64,000 bases of DNA from Sphaerolaimus hirsutus (Eukaryota > Nematoda > Chromadorea > Monhysterida > Sphaerolaimidae), in contig OZ038455.1 in assembly GCA_964036195.1 (NCBI GenBank), positions 5,349,855 to 5,413,854 of the forward strand. The letters are read 5' to 3'. This document shows positions 11,097-47,564 of this stretch, piece by piece. How positions within the stretch are numbered: the stretch's first letter is position 1; the number at the start of each line of letters is the position of its first letter. Made by a program: the position numbers and the translations under genes. The notes under the pieces were generated by a model. The model made no database searches, was not told the DNA's origin, and saw only the letters and a list, made by a program, of their open reading frames with translations.

Positions 11097-11752
11097 TGTA
11101 AAATTTTTTTAGAAAGAGCTCTCACTGTTGAGCATTAAAAACACCACTGTTTTCACCTTTAGATCACTTTATTTGTCATTTTCATGCATTATTTCACATT
11201 TTATTGCATTTTATAAAACATTTCAGACTGTAACAAATACTGTAGTGGTATGAAGTTCCCTAATATTGGCGCTTTTTCAGTGTTGATATTTTACTGATTA
11301 AGCAATGCGAAACACACTGGCTAAATGCGAGAATGGACATGCAGCAAATGTCAATGCAAAAGCCAGTTGACTTTGTGTCCAGCTGGTGAATTTCCATTGA
11401 TCTTGTCCTTTTTCACAAAAGTATGATGAACTGTAGAATACCATAAGTACTGATCAAAGGTTGGAGATCAAAGCCTAGTTTGTACATTTGTCATATTTTC
11501 AACATTCAATGCATAACTGCATGTGTGCACTGTGCAGTTATTTTTTGTACATTACCATATTTTATGCTTTCTCAAAAGCATAAAACATGGCCATCTGAAA
11601 GAAAAAAATACACTTTCTGTACCCAGGTATTTTGCTCAGGAAAGTGTAAAAAAGTGTATGGGTATTTTATGAAAGTGTAAGTGTAAGTGTAAATATAAAT
11701 ACCCATTTACCCGGGTATTTCGGGTAAGTGTAAATACACTTTCGCAACTCTG
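11097..11752. mobile_element. hAT-like element (GTGTAA iterons), left end lost, unit A
   Basis: Right end CAACTCTG followed by CCCCCAGG matches the intact copies at 23419-24172 and 38249-47249. The left CAGAGTTG end has been replaced by the junction with the snap-back element ending at 11096. The point corresponding to the foldback target is uninterrupted here (CCATAAGTACTGATC at about 11441-11455), giving one empty site. Confidence 0.8.
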
Positions 11753-23418: not shown

Positions 23419-24172
23419 CAGAGTTGTTAAAATACCGGTATTTTTGGAAAGTGTAAGTGTAAGTGTAAATACACTTTCCAAATTTTGAGTATGGATACCA
23501 AAAGTGTAAGGTATTTTAAAAATACCTAGGAAAGTGTAAAAAAAAAGTGTGAGTGTAAAAAAAATTTTTAGAAAGAGCTCTCACTGTTGAGCATTGAAAA
23601 ACACCACTGTTTTCTCCTTTAGATCGCTTTATTTGTCATCTTCATGCATTATTTCACATTTAACTGCATTTTATAAAACCTTTCAGACTGTAACAAATAC
23701 TGTAGTGGTATGAAGTTCCCTAATATTGGCGCTTTTTCAGTGTTGATATTTTACTGATTAAGCAATGCGAAACACACTGGCTAAATGCGAGAATGGACAT
23801 GCAGCAAATGTCAATGCAAAAGCCAGTTGACTTTGTGTCCAGCTGGTGAATTTCCATTGATCTTGTCCTTTTTCACAAGAGTATGATGAACTGTAGAATA
23901 CCATAAGTACTAATCAAAGGTTGGAGATCAAAGCCTAGTTTGTACATTTGTCATATTTTCAACATTCAATGCATAACTGCATGTGTGCACTGTGCAGTTA
24001 TTTTTTGTACATTACCCTATTTTATACTTTCCAAAAGCATAAAACATGGCCATCTGAAAGAAAAAAATACACTTTCTGTACCCAGGTATTTTGCTCAGGA
24101 AAGTGTAAAAAAAGTGTATGGGTATTTTACCCGGGTATTTCGGGTAAGTGTAAATACACTTTTGCAACTCTG
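23419..24172. mobile_element. hAT-like element (GTGTAA iterons), 754 bp, unit B
   Basis: CAGAGTTGTTAAAATACC to CAACTCTG, flanked by a perfect 8-bp duplication CCCCCAGG (23411-23418, 24173-24180). Iterons are uniformly GTGTAA/TTACAC instead of the GCGTAA of its relatives. It interrupts a TACCGTATTT-type element and is uninterrupted at the foldback target (CCATAAGTACTAATC, about 23902-23916), so it is the second empty site. Confidence 0.9.
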
Positions 24173-31973: not shown

Positions 31974-32808
31974 CAGAGTTGTTAAAATACCGGTATTTTT
32001 GGAAAGCGTAAGCGTAAGCGTAAATACACTTACCAAATTTTGAGTATGGATACTGTAAGCGTAAGGTATTTTTAAAATACCTAGGAAAGCGTAAAATAAA
32101 GCGTAAGCGTAAATTTTTTTTAGAATGTGCTCTCGCTGTTGAGCAACAGAAAACATCATTGTTTTCACTTTTAGATGAGGTATATTTACTCTGCGGACAT
32201 CACACTTAGTATGAAAACCTACCATAACCCATCTGAATAATGAACCAAAAATTATACAGATTTTTCATCATAATATATCGTTTTTACTATGAAAAATAAA
32301 TTACGAACTTAATCACTTTTATTTATTAAATATGAAGATTTTATTCATTAAATTATGGTAGGTTTCCATACTAAGTGTGCTGTCCGCCGAGTATATTATA
32401 TTTACAGAAAGAATGCAAAGTTGCACTCACTACAGGAAAACCGTCCGCCGAGTTTATTAGGGAAACAATTAGTTGCTGTGCACAACTCCTCCTTTTTATT
32501 CCTTAAATATTTCTCTTTCTTGCGTAACTGTGTGCAATATCCCACTCGTGCATTATCGACATAATAATCCTGGATGAACAAGTACTTTGCACCCTGCCAA
32601 CTATATACGACCCTGTTTGATGCTTCTCAAAAGCTATATAAACACGGTCCTGCGCAAATAATTTTTACGCTTTCTGTACCCGGGTATTTTGGCTGGGAAA
32701 GCGTAACAAAGCGTAAGGGTATTTTGTAAAAGCGTAAGCGTAGCGTAAGTATAAATACCCAAATACCCGGGTATTTCGGGTAAGCGTAAATACGCTTTCG
32801 CAACTCTG
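31974..32808. mobile_element. hAT-like element (GCGTAA iterons), 835 bp, unit B only
   Basis: CAGAGTTGTTAAAATACC to CAACTCTG with a perfect 8-bp duplication CACTGGAG (31966-31973, 32809-32816). Units A (about 17675) and C (about 53555) have the intact site TCACTGGAGTACACC, so this insertion postdates the split of these copies or was lost precisely. A separate hairpin (32180-32398, about 48-bp arms around CGGACA and CTTAGTATG) is nested inside. No transposase seen. Confidence 0.93.
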
Positions 32809-33221
32809 CACTGGAGTACACCTAGTTTTCCGGCAACATTGCACGGGGATTATTCTGCTACTGGGGAGAGGAGGGCAGCGTTCTGCTACTAACGATGGCA
32901 AACCCCCCATGAAAAAGTATTTAAATTTTTAAGTGTAGTTTCTGAAATGAATTTTAGAATTTTTCGTCAAAATAATTTTAGAATTTCGAATTTAATTTTC
33001 AAATTTTCGAATGTTTTTGGGCAATTTTCGAATTTTTTTTTAGAAAACTATTGAATTTGAACCTTTAAATGCTGTATTTGGATAGTTTAAAGGTTTGGAT
33101 CACCTTTTAACCTTAGTTTAGCTAAATTTAGCACAGTTTCTCATTTTCCAGAGCATTTTCCATGACTTTGACACTCTGCATGACACTTGACATATTACAG
33201 GGCAGTTTATATGGTCTGGAA

Positions 33222-35924: not shown

Positions 35925-38738
35925 AATAGGTAGAATTTTATTATTATAATTTCTTCTATCAGGCACCTCTAAAGCCTACAGCCTCTGCTCCAATAAGGCG
36001 ACTGTCGGTTTATTGTTTTCAGCACATTTTTGGGGATCGCATTATTGGAGGGGTCGTTTTATTGGAGAGGGTCGCATTGTATTTTTCAAAACCGCAACAA
36101 CTCAACTGTTCATGTAACTCTAGTATGAGCATGGCATTGTAAAGAAATATTGCCCTTGCAATATAGCAATATGTATACCTTGTGAATTGCCTGCAGGCTA
36201 TGGTAAATTGGCTGCCACTGTGTTGACCGTGGCAAAATGGATGGATAAAGAAATACAGAGAATTGATAATTAGGTTAATTTTTACCCATTTATCTATTTG
36301 CACAATTATGTTTCATGCACTATATATTTCAACCACGCAATTATTTCCAATTCCTACACTATATTATTTATGCATGGAGAATATTCGATTAAGAAAGTGT
36401 TTGTAAGTTATTGATAGGTTTGTGTGGAATGTTTAAGTTAAATGATTATATATACACATGTTTAGTTTACTTGCGATTTAGGAAACTCAAGTCCTGTAAT
36501 ATTTACGTTCAATGTATTGATTTAGGTCAGCGTCCAAATAGAGAAATGGTGTCCTGTGTGCGACTAGCACGTATTTACCAAGCCCTTCGCGTAGGCATAT
36601 TTATTATAGTCTTGCAATGCTTTATGTGTTTACGTTGCTTTGATACCTTTTAGTAGATGTACCCTGCTCATATTATATCAAATATATTATTAACCTTGCT
36701 CAATTAATATACCTACTTGCCTCGAATAAGTCCCAAATTGTCAATTATCAAATATACGTTTTCAGGAAGTGATTATTATTATGTTGAATATACCTTGCTC
36801 TACTTACGTCATTAGGAACATTCACATTGCTATTTACAAATTCCAACCCTATTATATTAGTTTCCAAAGTGTGTCAATGTTTTCTGACAAATTGAAACAG
36901 ATTAGTAAATTGGCTGAGTTTGCAGACTCCGCGCCTCACAAGATTAATAGTTTTTCTATTCACTCAATTTGTACCTGGTATTTCTTTACCATATTCATTT
37001 GAATGCTTACACATGCAGTATAAGCCAACTGTTTCGGCTAAATGTGTCTTAATGGTGCATTTGTGTCTTATTTGTGCATTTGTATTTAGGAGATTATTGT
37101 AGTCATGTTTTATACATAATTTCCATGTCTCAGCAACTTAAGAGTTTTTACTTCAGTCTTCTGACCCAAGTCCCAACCCAAAAATCAATCCAAATAAGTT
37201 AACAATAGAAACTTTGACGAGGAAGCTTGTTAACTTGCGCTTTTGTAATCATTGCTGCATCTGATCGAATTAAAGTACCTGAGACAATCTCGAAACCCCT
37301 TTCCAACACGCAACAACAAAATAAACTCAACTTGGCTGTTGACAAGTGGACGTTCGGCTACAACGAAAAATTCTAACCACTCTAGAGACCGTCACTCGCT
37401 ACGGTCTTGGAGTTGCCGGAATCGGTGGTAGAAGACACTGACTTTGGTGGCTTCATCACAGCCACCTTGTCCGCCAAATTAGTGTCGTCCGAAGATTGCG
37501 ACATCATTTTCTTACATGTAATCATGTGATATGTCTGCATCTGATACTTTCATCATGTGATATGTCATGCAAAGTGTCAAGAGTTATGAAAATGCCTGGG
37601 AAAATGGCTAAAATATTTGCCATTTTCCACAGCATTTCCATGACTTTAGACACTTTGCAAAACATTTGACATTTCACAGAGCATTTTATAGGTGTCTGGG
37701 AGGGCCCAAAGGAACTGCACATATTTATAAGCAAAAGAGATGTGATCAAAGATATACTCCATCGACATTACACCTTACAATGAAATCTACCATATTCCAT
37801 CTAAAAAAAAGAACAAACATAAAAATTTTCATAATATTCATCAAAGCGATTTGATAAATATGATGAAAGTTTTTTATGTTTGACCCCCCCCTCTCGAGAC
37901 CACTATGAAACAATCACCCCCCCCCCCCCCTCGAAATACCCCCCCCCCAAATTGAGTGTAAAGGGAACGTACATGACAATAACTGTAGTTTGTGTTCTGT
38001 GTACTGCAGAACACACGTTAAAACAATGTCGGTGTCACGTTAGAACAGTGTAGAACATCTACATACTAATATTAGTCTACAGAACCTTGAAGACCTGCAT
38101 CATCATCCACTTTCATGTAATCAATCTTGCGATGGAATTTTACGCCCGAGCTGTAATCGCTCCATTATGAAAAACGGAAAATTTTTGTCAAATTGAAAAA
38201 CAAGCAAAAAAGTGAATGAATTAACCCCCTCCTCGAAATACCCCCAGGCAGAGTTGTTAAAATACTGGTATTTTTGGAAAGTGTAAGTGTAAGTGTAAAT
38301 ACACTTTCCAAATTTTGAGTATGGATACCAAAAGTGTAAGGTATTTTAAAAATACCTAGGAAAGTGTAAAAAAAAGTGTGAAAAAATTTTTTTAGAAAGA
38401 GCTCTCACTGTTGAGCATTAAAAAACACCACTGTTTTCACCTTTAGATCGCTTTATTTGTCATCTTCATGCATTATTTCACATTTAACTGCATTTTATAA
38501 AACCTTTCAGACTGTAACAAATACTGTAGTGGTATGAAGTTCCCTAATATTGGCGCTTTTTCAGTGTTGATATTTTACTGATTAAGCAATGCGAAACACA
38601 CTGGCTAAATGCGAGAATGGACATGCAGCAAATGTCAATGCAAAAGCCAGTTGACTTTGTGTCCAGCTGGTGAATTTCCATTGATCTTGTCCTTTTTCAC
38701 AAAAGTATGATGAACTGTAGAATACCATAAGTGAGGAG

Positions 38739-39236
38739 TTTGGTTCCGTAACCCGTTAAGTGCAAAAGTGAAAAAAATTGAGTTAAGTGCGGATCTGACG
38801 TATATATATATATTTCTTCGTGATAGAAAAAAAAGTTTCTCAATATCTCATACCGTTCCCGAGATACAGAGATAGCGTTTTTTGAAAAAAATGCAAGTTT
38901 GCATCCGAAACCCGTTATCTGCAGCCCAAAATAGGCAAGTTTGCACTCGAAACCCGTTATCTACAAAAAAAACTATCATTTTTTGCACCCGAAACTCGTT
39001 ATCTGCAGAGAAAAAAGTTTGCATCCGAAACTCGTTAAGGATTTAGTATGGAGGTGTCAAAATCACCATACAAAAATGGAGTTTGCATCCGAAACTCGTT
39101 AAGGAAATCTGTACTGGTTTTTATGAATTTGCATCCGAAACTCGTTATCTGCAGGTGACTTTGCACCCGAAACTCGTTATCTGCAGGTGACTTTGCACCC
39201 GAAACTCGTTATCTGCAGGTGACTTTTTATTTGAAT
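38739..39236. promoter_or_regulatory. Left subterminal iterons of the foldback element
   Basis: About nine copies of TTTGCA(C/T)CCGAAAC(C/T)CGTTA, usually followed by TCTGCAG, lie at about 38739 (within the TIR), 38898, 38940, 38982, 39018, 39082, 39128, 39160 and 39192. The last three are a 32-bp direct tandem. The right side has three: 46634, 46685 and, inverted, within the TIR at 46909-46940. Their presence inside the TIR suggests a transposase-binding site, which is inference. Confidence 0.75.
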
Positions 39237-39258
39237 AACTCCACTTGTGAACATTTTT

Positions 39259-42200
39259 ATGGAGTGGTGTTAGGGGCACCAAAATAGTGCTATTTCTATG
39301 GAGTGGATTTAGGGGCACCAAAATCATGCCATTTTCATGGAGTGGTGCTAGGGGCACCAAAATAGTGCCATTTTTATGGAGTGGTGCTAGGGGCACCAAA
39401 ATTTTGCCATTTCTATGGAGTGACTTTAGGGACAACAAAATCACGCCATTTTCATGGAGTGGTGCTAGGGGCACCAGAATAGTGCCATTTTCATGGAGTG
39501 GTGCTAGGGGTGCCAAAATAGTGCCATTTTTGTTGAAGTGGTGCTAGGGTCACCAAAATCATGCCATTTTCATGGAATGGTGCTAGGGGTGCCAAAATAG
39601 TGCCATTTTCATGGAATGGTGCTAGGGGCACCAAAATAGTGCCATTTTCATGGAATGGTGCTAGGGGCGCCAAAATAGTGCCATTTTTGTTGAAGTGGTG
39701 CTAGGGTCACCAAAATCATGCCATTTTCATGGAATGGTGCTAGGGGTGCCAAAATAGTGCCATTTTCATGGAGTGGTGCTAGGGGCACCAAAATAGTGTC
39801 ATTTTCATGGAATGGTGCTAGGGGTGCCAAAATAGTGCCATTATTGTTGGAGTGGTGCTAGGGTCACCAAAATCATGCCATTTTCATGGAATGGTGCTAG
39901 AGGCACCAAAATAGTGCCATTTTCATGGAGTGGTGCTAGGGGTGCCAAAATAGTGCCATTTTTGTTGAAGTGGTGCTAGGGTCACCAAAATCATGCCATT
40001 TTCATGGAGTGGTGCTAGGGGCACCAAAATAGTGCCATTTTTATGGAGTGGTGCTAGGGGCACCAAAATTTTGCCATTTCTATGGAGTGACTTTAGGGAC
40101 AACAAAATCACGCCATTTTCATGGAGTGGTGCTAGGGGTGCCAAAATAGTGCCATTTTTGTTGAAGTGGTGCTAGGGTCACCAAAATCATGCCATTTTCA
40201 TGGAATGGTGCTAGGGGTGCCAAAATAGTGCCATTTTCATGGAATGGTGCTAGGGGCACCAAAATAGTGCCATTTTCATGGAATGGTGCTAGGGGCACCA
40301 AAATAGTGCCATTTTTGTTGAAGTGGTGCTAGGGTCACCAAAATCATGCCATTTTCATGGAATGGTGCTAGGGGTGCCAAAATAGTGCCATTTTCATGGA
40401 GTGGTGCTAGGGGCACCAAAATAGTGTCATTTTCATGGAATGGTGCTAGGGGCGCCAAAATAGTGCCATTATTGTTGGAGTGGTGCTAGGGTCACCAAAA
40501 TCATGCCATTTTCATGGAATGGTGCTAGAGGCACCAAAATAGTGCCATTTTCATGGAGTGGTGCTAGGGGTGCCAAAATAGTGCCATTTTTGTTGAAGTG
40601 GTGCTAGGGTCACCAAAATCATGCCATTTTCATGGAATGGTGCTAGGGGCGCCAAAATAGTGCCATTTTCATGGAGTGGTGCTAGGGGCACCAAAATGGT
40701 GCCATTTGTATTGAGTGGTGCTAGGGGCACCAAAATCATGCCATTTTCATGGAATGGTGCTAGGGGCGCCAAAATAGTGCCATTTTCATGGAGTGGTGCT
40801 AGGGGCACCAAAATGGTGCCATTTGTATTGAGTGGTGCTAGGGGCACCAAAATAGTGCCATTTTTATGGAGTGGCATTAGGGGCACCAAAATCATGCCAT
40901 TTTCATGGAATGGTGCTAGGGGCGCCAAAATAGTGCCATTTTCATGGAGTGGTGCTAGGGGCACCAAAATGGTGCCATTTGTATTGAGTGGTGCTAGGGG
41001 CACCAAAATCATGCCATTTTCATGGAATGGTGCTAGAGGCACCAAAATAGTGCCATTTTCATGGAGTGGTGCTAGGGGCGCCAAAATAGTGCCATTTTCA
41101 TGGAGTGGTGCTAGGGGCACCAAAATGGTGCCATTTGTATTGAGTGGTGCTAGGGGCACCAAAATCATGCCATTTTCATGGAATGGTGCTAGGGGCGCCA
41201 AAATAGTGCCATTTTCATGGAGTGGTGCTAGGGGCACCAAAATGGTGCCATTTGTATTGAGTGGTGCTAGGGGCACCAAAATAGTGCCATTTTTATGGAG
41301 TGGCATTAGGGGCACCAAAATAGCGCCTTTATCATGGAAATGGTGCTAGGGGTGACAAAATAGTGCCATTTCAATGGTGTGATTAGGGGCACCAAAATAG
41401 CGCCATTTCTATGGAGTGGTGCTAGAGGCACCAAAATGGTGCCAATCTTTATGGAATGGTGCTAGTGGCACCAAAAAAGTGCCATTTTCATGGAGTGGTG
41501 CTTGGGGCACCAAAATAGTGCCATTTTTATGGAGTAGTGCAAGGGGCACCAAAATAGTGCCATTTTTATGTAGTGACATTAGGGGCACCAAAATCACACC
41601 ATTTTCATGGAATGGTGCTAGGGGCGCCAAAATAGTGCCATTTTCATGGAGTGGTGCTAGGGGCACCAAAATGGTGCCATTTGTATTGAGTGGTGCTAGG
41701 GGCTCCAAAATAGTGCCATGTTTTTAGAATGGTGCTAGGGGCACCAAAATAGTGCCATTTTTGTAGAGTGGTGCTAGGGGCACCAAAATAGTGCCATTTT
41801 TATGGAGTGGCATTAGGGGCACCAAAATAGTGCCTTTATCATGGAAATGGTGCTAGGGGTGACAAAATAGTGCCATTTCAATGGTGTGATTAGGGGCACC
41901 AAAATAGCGCCATTTCTATGGAGTGGTGCTAGAGGCACCAAAATGGTGCCAATCTTTATGGAATGGTGCTAGTGGCACCAAAAAAGTGCCATTTTCATGG
42001 AGTGGTGCTTGGGGCACCAAAATAGTGCCATTTTTATGGAGTAGTGCAAGGGGCACCAAAATAGTGCCATTTTTATGTAGTGACATTAGGGGCACCAAAA
42101 TCACACCATTTTCATGGAATGGTGCTAGGGGCCCCAAAATAGTGCCATTTTTATGGAATGGCACTAGGGGCACCAAAATCCCACCATTTTTATGGAATGG

Positions 42201-42795
42201 CACAAGGGCACCAAACGCATGCCATTGTTATGAAGTGATACTAGGGGCACCAAACTCACACCATTTTTATTGTGGTGCTAGGGGAGCCAAACTCACGCCA
42301 TTTCCAAGGAGTGGCAGTATGGATGCCAAACATGTGCAAATGTCTATGCAATGGTGCAAGGGGCACCAAAGTCACACCATCTTTATGAAATGGCTCTTGG
42401 GCCACCAAGCTCATTCCATTTTTATGGAGTGGCACTAGCAGTGCCAAACTCATGCCATTTTTATGGAATAGCTGTATGGGCGCCAAACTTAAGCCATTTT
42501 TATGTAGTCATGGTAGGGGCACCAAACTCATGCCATTCTTATGGAGTGGCACTAGCAGTGTCAAACTCATGCCATTTTTATGGAATAGCTGTATGGGCGC
42601 CAAACTTAAGCCATTTTTATGTAGTCATGGACTCATGGTAGGGGCACCAAACTCATGCCATTTTTATGGAGTGGCATTAGGGGAACCAAAGTAGTGCCAT
42701 TTTTATGGAATGGCTCTAGAGGCACCAAACTTAACCAATTTTATGGAGTGGCGCTAGGGGCACCATACTTGCACCATTTTTATGGAATGGTGTTA
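39259..42795 (+). repeat. 39-bp satellite, left arm of the foldback element
   Basis: About 90 units of GGAGTGGTGCTAGGGGCACC plus AAAATAGTGCCATTTTCAT. Each contains the mini-hairpin GGTGC-TAGGG-GCACC. Some units are 40 bp (TTTTTGTTGAAG variant). Higher-order periods visible: about 628 bp (39491 and 40119), 117 bp (40621-41300, three-unit type) and 507 bp (41416 and 41923). Units degenerate from about 42180 toward the spacer. Because 39 is a multiple of three, several frames on both strands stay open, up to 255 codons; these are not taken as genes. Confidence 0.95.
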
Positions 42796-43739
42796 GACTT
42801 GGGTTATAATAGGTACATCAAAAGTTATGTTTTACACTGTAGAAGTATGTGGGCACACACTGGCTGGATTTATAAAACTATAGTAACATATTGCAGTTTT
42901 TTTAGACAATAGAATGAACAAATGGAAGCTTTTGCACTAAAAATTCCTCAAAACCAATGAAAGCAATATTAAAGTAATGTGTAAGTGAAGTTGTGTCCCT
43001 TAGTGCAAAAAATGCAAAAAAAAACAGTGCATGAGTACTAAAAATGTTAGCTGAGGGTTAAAAATGGTTTCGATGTGTGTTTCTTAAAGAAATGTTGTTT
43101 TAAAAAACCCTTAAAAAACCCTTAACTGGTCATCCTTAGCCATTGTTATACCTCTTCTGCATGCGGAATGTTGATGCATTCAATTTCTAAAATTGTGCTT
43201 TATGTCAGGTAAGGCTTGCATCACAGTGGGTGAAAAAAGCATAAATGAAACAGAAATCAAAAATGACTGAAAATCACCTAAAACAGAATGTCTAAACATG
43301 AAGAACAAACAACAAACTGTGAGTAATGCAAATGTAATGGAATATACTACTTCTATGACTACACATTGCAACACACATGGATTATTATGATCTGGCAAAA
43401 TGTCTATAATCCATTTTCTACATGCCTTCTTGGATTTGGTCATTTTACTTTTTTATTTTATTTTATTTTACTGTTGTTTTAAAATCATTTTTAATGTTCT
43501 TTGTGTGATTTTTGTCATTTTACAGAATCTTTTATATTTCTTTTTGACATTTCACAGGGAATTAGTCATTTTACAGTGATTTTTCTGAGTCTGGAAATGG
43601 GATTTTTAATGGGTGACCCCAATGCAAAAATGCAAATTTTGGATCTGGTAAACTTTTAACATTTTAATCACATGTGAACATGCAAATGAACAAAAAAACA
43701 TTGTGGTGCAAATGAGAATTGGCAATTACAGAGTCAATA
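42796..43739. other. Central spacer of the foldback element
   Basis: Non-satellite AT-rich DNA. It contains a TTTTA tract (43440-43475) and TTTACAGGG-like motifs (about 43520-43600: TTTGACATTTCACAGGG, then GAGTCTGGAAATGGG). The one frame worth noting is minus-strand 43180-43443: MTKSKKACRKWIIDILPDHN followed by NPCVLQCVVIE, then hydrophobic and less convincing. It has no recognised domain and is far too short for a transposase. Confidence 0.6.
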
Positions 43740-46622
43740 GCACCATTTCATAAGTATGGCACCATTCCACATGGATGCCACAACTTTGGTATCTGTAGCA
43801 ACATTCTATGACAATAGCACAATTTTCATGCCCCTAATGGCACTCCATAGAAATGGCACTATTTTGGCACCCCTAGCACCATTCCATGAAAATGGCGTGA
43901 TTTTGGTGCCCCTAGCACCACTCTATAAAATCGGCACTATTTTGGTGCCCCTAGCACCATTCCATGAAAATGGCACTATTTTGGTGCCCCTAGCACCACT
44001 CTGTGAAAATGGCACTATTTTGGCGCCCCTAGCACCATTCCATGAACATGGCATGATTTTGGTGCCCCTAGCACCACTCCATAAAAATGGCACTATTTTG
44101 GTGCCCCTAGCACCACTCCATGCAAATGGCACTATTTTGGTGCCCCTAGCACCACTCCATGAAAATGGCACTATTTTGGTGCCCCTAGCACCACTCCATG
44201 CAAATGGCACTATTTTGGTGCCCCTAGCACCACTCCATGAAAATGGCACTATTTTGGCGCCCCTAGCACCATTCCATGAAAATGGCATGATTTTGGTAAC
44301 CCTAGCACCACTTCAACAAAAATGGCACTATTTTAGCACCTGTAGCACCACTCCATAAAAATGGCACTAATTTGGTGCCTCTAGCACCACTCCATAAAGA
44401 TGGCACTATTTTAGTGCCCCTAGCACCACTCCATAAAAATGGCACTATTTTGGTGCCCCAAGCACCACTCCATGAAAATGGCACTTTTTTGGTGCCGCTA
44501 GCACCACTCCATGAAAATGGCACTATTTTAGCGCCCCTAGCACCATTCCATGAAAATGGCGTGATTTTGGTACCCCTAATGCCACTCCATAAAAATGGCA
44601 CTATTTTGGTGCCCCTAATGCCACTCCATAAAAATGTCACTATTTTGGTGCCCCTAGCACCATTCCATAAAAATGGCACTATTTTGGTGCCTCTAGCACT
44701 ACTCCATAGAAATGGCGCTATTTTGGTGCCCCTAATCACACTATTGAAATGGCACTATTTTGTCACCCCTAGCACCATTTCCATGATAAAGGCGCTATTT
44801 TGGTGCCCCTAATGCCACTCCATAAAAATGGCACTATTTTGGTGCCCCTAGCACCACTCTATAAAAATGGCACTATTTTGGTGCCCCTAGCACCACTCAA
44901 TACAAATGGCACTATTTTGGTGCCCCTAGCACCACTCCATGAAAATGGCACTATTTTGGTGCCCCTAGCACCACTCCATGCAAATGGCACTATTTTGGTG
45001 CCCCTAGCACCACTCCATGAAAATGGCACTATTTTGGCGCCCCTAGCACCATTCCATGAAAATGGCATGATTTTGGTAACCCTAGCACCACTTCAACAAA
45101 AATGGCACTATTTTAGCACCTGTAGCACCACTCCATAAAAATGGCACTAATTTGGTGCCTCTAGCACCACTCCATAAAGATGGCACTATTTTAGTGCCCC
45201 TAGCACCACTCCATAAAAATGGCACTTTTTTGGTGCCCCAAGCACCACTCCATGAAAATGGCACTTTTTTGGTGCCGCTAGCACCACTCCATGAAAATGG
45301 CACTATTTTAGCGCCCCTAGCACCATTCCATGAAAATGGCGTGATTTTGGTACCCCTAATGCCACTCCATAAAAATGGCACTATTTTGGTGCCCCTAATG
45401 CCACTCCATAAAAATGTCACTATTTTGGTGCCCCTAGCACCATTCCATAAAAATGGCACTATTTTGGTGCCTCTAGCACTACTCCATAGAAATGGCGCTA
45501 TTTTGGTGCCCCTAATCACACTATTGAAATGGCACTATTTTGTCACCCCTAGCACCATTTCCATGATAAAGGCGCTATTTTGGTGCCCCTAATGCCACTC
45601 CATAAAAATGGCACTATTTTGGTGCCCCTAGCACCACTGTATAAAAATGGCACTATTTTGGTGCCCCTAGCACCACTCAATACAAATGGCACTATTTTGG
45701 TGCCCCTAGCACCACTCCATGAAAATGGCACTATTTTGGTGCCCCTAGCACCACTCCATGCAAATGGCACTATTTTGGTGCCCCTAGCACCACTCCATGA
45801 AAATGGCACTATTTTGGCGCCCCTAGCACCATTCCATGAAAATGGCATGATTTTGGTAACCCTAGCACCACTTCAACAAAAATGGCACTATTTTAGCACC
45901 TGTAGCACCACTCCATAAAAATGGCACTAATTTGGTGCCTCTAGCACCACTCCATAAAGATGGCACTATTTTAGTGCCCCTAGCACCACTCCATAAAAAT
46001 GGCACTATTTTGGTGCCCCAAGCACCACTCCATGAAAATGGCACTTTTTTGGTGCCGCTAGCACCACTCCATGAAAATGGCACTATTTTAGCGCCCCTAG
46101 CACCATTCCATGAAAATGGCGTGATTTTGGTACCCCTAATGCCACTCCATAAAAATGGCACTATTTTGGTGCCCCTAATGCCACTCCATAAAAATGTCAC
46201 TATTTTGGTGCCCCTAGCACCATTCCATAAAAATGGCACTATTTTGGTGCCTCTAGCACTACTCCATAGAAATGGCGCTATTTTGGTGCCCCTAATCACA
46301 CTATTGAAATGGCACTATTTTGTCACCCCTAGCACCATTTCCATGATAAAGGCGCTATTTTGGTGCCCCTAATGCCACTCCATAAAAATGGCACTATTTT
46401 GGTGCCCCTAGCACCACTCTATAAAAATGGCACTATTTTGGTGCCCCTAGCACCACTCAATACAAATGGCACTATTTTGGTGCCCCTAGCACCACTCCCT
46501 AAAAATGGCACTATTTTGGTGCCCCTAGCACCACTCTATAAAAATGGCACTATTTTGGTGCCCCTAGCACCACTCTATACAAATTGCGCAAGTTTGGTGC
46601 CCCTAGTGCCACTCCATAAAAT
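43740..46622 (-). repeat. 39-bp satellite, inverted right arm of the foldback element
   Basis: About 74 units in opposite orientation to the left arm (TTTTGGTGCCCCTAGCACCA, then CTCCATAAAAATGGCACTA). A 780-bp higher-order repeat of exactly 20 units occurs about three times (starts near 44122, 44902 and 45682, to about 46498) with very few differences. Marker variants shared with the left arm, such as GCGCCTTTATCATGG and GCCAATCTTTATGG, show the arms share sub-families and did not arise independently. Confidence 0.95.
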
Positions 46623-47564
46623 TCAGTTGATAGTTTGCACCTGAAACTCGTTATCTACATGTGGCTATTGGCACTCAGGTGAAAGTTTGCACCCGAAACC
46701 CATTATCTGCATGCATTTATGCTGATGTGAGGTCAAACAAATCATCATAACTCTAGGTATATACCCCGGCCAGAGGGTTGTAAATATGGAAAATGTAGAG
46801 AAATTCATGAACTTTTCAAAAAGTTTCGGGCAAGCGTTGTCACTTGAAGCATGCCCGCGCGGGCCAATGTCAAAGTTTCAAATGCGATTTTCAAAAAACC
46901 CAAAAACGTGCAGATAACGGGTTTCGGAATCAAACTCCTCAAGTACTAATCAAAGGTTGGAGATCAAAGCCTAGTTTGTACATTTGTCATATTTTCAACA
47001 TTCAATGCATAACTGCATGTGTGCACTGTGCAGTTATTTTTTGTACATTACCCTATTTTATGCTTTCTCAAAAGCATAAAACATGGCCATCTGAAAGAAA
47101 AAAATACACTTTCTGTACCCAGGTATTTTGCTCAGGAAAGTGTAAAAAAAGTGTATGGGTATTTTATGAAAGTGTAAGTGTAAGTGTAAATATAAATACC
47201 CATTTACCCGGGTATTTTGGGTGAGTGTAAATACACTTTTGCAACTCTGCCCCCAGGTGTTTTCGAGCTGAGGAAAAAATAACACCCCCCCCCCTCGAAA
47301 TACCCCCGTCTGAAATGCTGTACCTCATGTATGCGACGTATGATTAAAACATATATATTTGTGGGTGAATTGCGTGCTAAGTATGGCTAATGTAAAAGAT
47401 AGGATGCACAATCACAGGCCTCATTGTGCCCGATTTGTGTGTGTTTTTGCACACAATGCAGTCACTATTTATTAGTACAAATGCCCTTTACAAACACGAT
47501 CCACAATTTTGACAAACAGGGTTAGTAGATGGCAAAGTTGCTTCCCAAGAATGCAATTGCACAT

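Follow-up and report, generated by a model that had tools for sequence, protein, structure and literature searches.

A short-ended DNA transposon family with an inverted 39-bp satellite as probable cargo in the nematode Sphaerolaimus hirsutus

The window analyzed here is a stretch of 64,000 nucleotides from the nematode Sphaerolaimus hirsutus (assembly GCA_964036195.1, contig OZ038455.1, positions 5,349,855 to 5,413,854 of the forward strand). Between window positions 11100 and 55500 a segment of 12–15 kb is present in three tandem paralogues of about 97–99% identity. One of them is interrupted by an insertion of 8,208 bp with base-exact coordinates (38733–46940), which is absent from the other two. 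At the left boundary of this window copy the sequence passes from CCATAAGT to GAGGAGTTTGGTTCCGTAACCCGTTA, at the right boundary from TAACGGGTTTCGGAATCAAACTCCTC to AAGTACT. Both termini start with GAGGAGTTTG and form a 26-bp terminal inverted repeat (TIR) with two differences between the ends. The uninterrupted paralogous sites both read CCATAAGTACT and represent the target before insertion. Aligned to the first of these sites, the two flanks of the insertion are identical to it in 98.3% of 350 columns and 97.5% of 404 columns. The TIRs, the AAGT duplication and the two empty sites described in the initial annotation are confirmed (Table 1). Empty sites were examined for the window copy only. 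The tandem paralogues also differ by private insertions and deletions; for example, the second one has an additional segment at ~31974–32809. Rfam and tRNA scans of the whole window gave no matches.

Table 1: Positions of the window copy, its parts and its empty target sites within the window.
Feature	Position	Strand	Properties
Empty target site, tandem paralogue 1	11445–11448	.	AAGT
Empty target site, tandem paralogue 2	23905–23908	.	AAGT
Left target-site duplication	38729–38732	.	AAGT
Left domain	38733–39251	+	519 bp; repeated subterminal motif TTTGCA[CT]CCGAAAC[CT]CGTTA
Left TIR, G/T type	38733–38758	+	GAGGAGTTTGGTTCCGTAACCCGTTA
32-bp direct repeat	39124–39226	+	TGACTTTGCACCCGAAACTCGTTATCTGCAGG, 3.2 copies
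Left satellite junction	39233–39267	+	34 genome matches with at most 3 mismatches
Left satellite arm	39252–42796	+	39-bp unit, 90.6 copies
Spacer	42797–43812	+	about 1.0 kb; 27 genome loci at at least 91%
Right satellite arm	43813–46621	-	39-bp unit, inverted, about 72 copies
Right satellite junction	46622–46661	+	23 genome matches with at most 3 mismatches
Right domain	46622–46940	+	319 bp
Right TIR, A/A type	46915–46940	-	GAGGAGTTTGATTCCGAAACCCGTTA
Right target-site duplication	46941–46944	.	AAGT

Inside the insertion, two inverted arrays of a 39-bp satellite surround a spacer, and the arrays in turn are enclosed by a left and a right outer domain. The left domain is 96.6–99.2% identical in the other copies compared. 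The TIR is itself a variant of the subterminal motif that is repeated in this domain. The right arm contains 780-bp higher-order repeats. A part of the spacer at 42811–43140 (spacer bases 15–340) resembles 13 dispersed loci at 74–79%; part of the spacer therefore belongs to a different repeat family.

The distribution of the element was determined in the assembly of the source genome (348.5 Mb, 762 contigs). There are 180 exact matches to the 26-bp end (89 and 91 on the two strands), while the reversed control sequence gave no match; the TIRs are thus common to dispersed copies. A search with the left 1.5 kb yielded 163 matches, and the 150 matches listed fall into 27 loci which all possess the left satellite junction. 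This junction was found 34 times at 32 loci genome-wide (37 of 1,130 first-look candidates scored). The reversed controls for the left and the right junction were both negative. The exact 39-bp monomer is present 618 times and strand-balanced (305 versus 313). Among the 100 monomers listed, 98 lie inside six known element loci. The other two, at C2:3219022-3219130, stand apart from known element copies and may come from an array outside any element or from an eroded copy of the element. This distribution gives no clear support to the seeding of satellite arrays outside the element that the initial annotation envisaged. A 23-base subterminal motif had no match in viral contigs or prokaryote genomes, the 39-bp monomer had none in viral contigs, and a protein search with the reading frame of the array gave no hit among 7,998 scored candidates at an E value of 0.001.

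Insertion of these copies left a uniform trace. Every one of the 20 satellite-bearing copies that could be read at both ends is flanked by an identical 4-bp duplication, each at a different site (six of these duplications were entered by hand). Of 19 copies without 39-bp arrays 17 have two recognizable ends, and 14 of the 17 show an identical 4-bp duplication; in the other three (L040, L045 and L052) the flanking 4 bp are not identical. The length of the duplication is therefore constant at 4 bp. All 34 matched duplications follow the pattern ANNT, AATT being the commonest (14 cases). Three satellite loci are incomplete: in L033 the left end is replaced, in L030 the right part is gone after the spacer, and L020 lies at a contig end. 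L017 contains a run of N. The initial annotation had treated the locus as a mobile unit whose ends should recur in the genome next to 4-bp duplications, and both were found.

The same family includes copies which have no satellite at all. In short siblings of 558–812 bp (six of nine compared, plus others; the copy at C4:22812154 has 735 bp) the left and right domains are joined without the satellite block. The satellite-bearing elements range from 2,309 to 21,544 bp. All 21 satellite copies viewed share the same left junction (for L035 taken from the genome-wide junction search), and the same right junction is present in the 18 copies viewed that cover this site, where it splits into two sub-lineages reading GATAG or GAAAG. 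These common junctions indicate that the block arose a single time and was afterwards transported as cargo, in agreement with the earlier proposal that the whole satellite block travels as one unit. As judged from these sequence comparisons, satellite blocks of this family were carried to new chromosomal sites. The same element thus exists with and without an internal array of variable copy number. In 15 copies the arm lengths vary independently, from 698 to 5,231 bp on the left and from 824 to 3,737 bp on the right. Left arms are closer to the left arms of other copies than to right arms, clearly so in 12 of the 15. In a tree of the ends the satellite copies do not all form one clade, and L025 stands beside short copies. 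The longest array stretches common to copies are too near the array background (about 88–91%) to show how long the arrays were when a copy jumped, and with N runs in L010 and L017 the array length given for any one locus is provisional.

Two satellite-derived loci have a reduced structure. In L025 (G000:C15:22167473-22169781), which bears the satellite, the arms meet without a spacer. L068 (G000:C1:25564080-25564320) is a remnant with one monomer-like unit between both satellite junctions, and it is probably a collapsed array.

The orientation of the spacer revealed a further rearrangement. Among 22 loci scored, the spacer relative to the left end has the plus orientation in the window copy and in L010 and the minus orientation in the 20 others. 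In the profiles of five elements the innermost left arm of the window copy resembles the right arms of other copies, and its innermost right arm resembles their left arms. A flipped spacer with swapped inner arm ends is, at the level of sequence, the pattern expected from exchange between the inverted arms. The spacers of L010 and the window copy are 99% identical, so that the flipped state was probably inherited and is not an assembly slip. The 780-bp higher-order repeats mask the breakpoints of the flip. Homogenization of the arms within an element was considered and rejected, as the opposite arms of one element are no closer to each other than to the same-side arms of other copies. The window copy is the exception, and its closer opposite arms are explained by the spacer flip.

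The short siblings may also hold a trace of the origin of the satellite. In several of them CATTTTCATGAGGCTAGTGGCAC, which can be aligned with the monomer stretch CATTTTCATGGAGTGGTGCTAGGGGCAC, is found at the position of the block in other copies. The score of this alignment was reached by 0–2 of 200 shuffles in four of six short copies tested. In the remaining two the best monomer match lies elsewhere and lacks significance, its score being reached by 21 and 28 of 200 shuffles. The monomer-like piece is suggestive of an internal origin of the satellite, or else of a remnant of it. A second type of array was found in a sibling of 2,056 bp at G000:C3:23687595-23689650 (L054, L057), which is flanked by an ATAT duplication and contains the 32-bp motif TGACTTTGCACCCGAAACTCGTTATCTGCAGG as a direct array of ~1.4 kb. 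A homogeneous array of the same motif lies on a small contig (G000:C138:5133-5928). With arrays of both the 39-bp and the 32-bp unit, arrays formed more than once in the family. One could go further and regard the family as a satellite generator, in which the inner segment would repeatedly be converted into arrays (an inverted 39-bp pair in one lineage, a direct 32-bp array in one or more other insertions) in connection with transposition or repair, already-long kilobase arrays would be planted at ANNT sites and the arms would flip the spacer. We regard this wider reading as possible but doubtful.

Taken together, we consider it highly probable that the element is a non-autonomous cut-and-paste DNA transposon which is mobilized in trans, with a satellite that formed once inside it and is carried as cargo, and with a spacer that is flipped by exchange between the arms. 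A transposase encoded elsewhere would bind the repeated subterminal and terminal motif and would mobilize the cargo-free and the satellite-bearing forms alike. Insertion duplicates 4 bp at ANNT. The satellite would have formed in one copy, possibly from the monomer-like piece at the junction point of the short siblings, would then have become an inverted repeat around the spacer and would have travelled as cargo from there on. Its arms may lengthen and shorten by unequal exchange or slippage, and the flipped spacer of the window copy would result from exchange between the two inverted arms. Among the loci read (eight right ends and a single left end followed inward, plus a small number of other stretches, with 100 of the 180 ends listed), neither a transposase nor an autonomous copy was found. 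The eight right ends, which are 98–100% identical, lead into short elements, of which five or six have recognizable left ends and one carries a 32-bp array. By its length, the 4-bp duplication is compatible with the Sola superfamily, among others.

The inverted tandem arrays on both sides of a spacer call to mind classical foldback elements of the FB, Galileo or Tetris type, in which long inverted repeats of tandem units are the transposon ends, and the inverted arms of four copies indeed align at 83–88% and could pair. However, the arrays end 519 bp (left) and 319 bp (right) inside the termini, and the outer domains are mutually inverted only over about 32 terminal bases (87.5%) and are otherwise not inverted copies of each other. 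Thus, the structure is that of a short-TIR transposon with an internal inverted satellite and not that of a foldback element. Moreover, array-free copies transpose with the same duplication, and this duplication has 4 bp instead of the 8–10 bp of Mutator-type foldback elements. A classical foldback is accordingly very unlikely. From the foldback with satellite arms proposed in the initial annotation the inverted arrays remain, but these arms are not the terminal inverted repeats.

Since the block sits between otherwise contiguous end domains, it might instead be a second transposable element nested in the short one. By eye, however, its junctions show neither a duplication nor an inverted repeat beyond the monomers, and all 27 loci (from 150 of 163 array matches listed) have the junction with the host element; we judge such nesting unlikely. 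Inverted repeats also favor misassembly, and L010 and L017 contain runs of N, so that the inverted arrangement or the spacer flip could be a misjoin of similar arrays. Against this, inverted arms with the same junctions occur at about 30 loci, which makes an artefact of the whole arrangement unlikely, and the flipped form is present at two loci with spacers that are 99% identical to each other. An assembly artefact is therefore extremely improbable.

Both foldback elements with tandem repeats, such as Tetris (PMC4079207), and satellites inside miniature elements (MITEs), such as Xenopus Xstir and miDNA4 (PMC12628747), are known. Like Tetris/DAIBAM of the Drosophila virilis group, the present element is non-autonomous and has inverted arms of tandem repeats. 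Tetris also has a MITE-like relative with the same ends, its repeats give longer arrays and its transposase was not found. In contrast, the TIRs of Tetris reach up to 1,735 bp and contain the repeats, which have units of about 220 bp, its duplications have 8–10 bp and three structurally complete copies are described (PMC4079207), whereas here the TIRs have 26 bp with the 39-bp units inside, the duplication is 4-bp ANNT and 20 complete copies were read. Xstir and miDNA4 resemble the present family in that a MITE family exists with and without an internal tandem array of variable copy number. However, miDNA4 belongs to Tc1/mariner, and the account of it consulted here describes no inverted pair of kilobase arms and no flipping spacer (PMC12628747). 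The Tm1 Mutator/foldback element of root-knot nematodes shares composite end repeats and MITE-like relatives with the present element, but is described with 9-bp duplications, 14-bp repeats within the TIR and known transposase-bearing copies (PMC3169594). The family is set apart from Tetris and from Xstir/miDNA4 by inverted kilobase arms inside short-TIR ends, by its size, by the flipped isomer and by two array types in one family. No description of these ends was found in the open-licence literature, compared by words rather than by sequence.

As a rule, the spread of satellites to remote places on the chromosomes has to be deduced from arrays found scattered over them. In the present case, a single genome contains cargo-free siblings, cargo copies flanked by duplications, empty sites, partial collapses (L025, L068) and a flipped isomer. 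Consequently, the way in which a satellite is born, transported, enlarged and lost becomes readable and datable within one family. In addition, the inverted arms represent a testable, putative source of long hairpin RNA.
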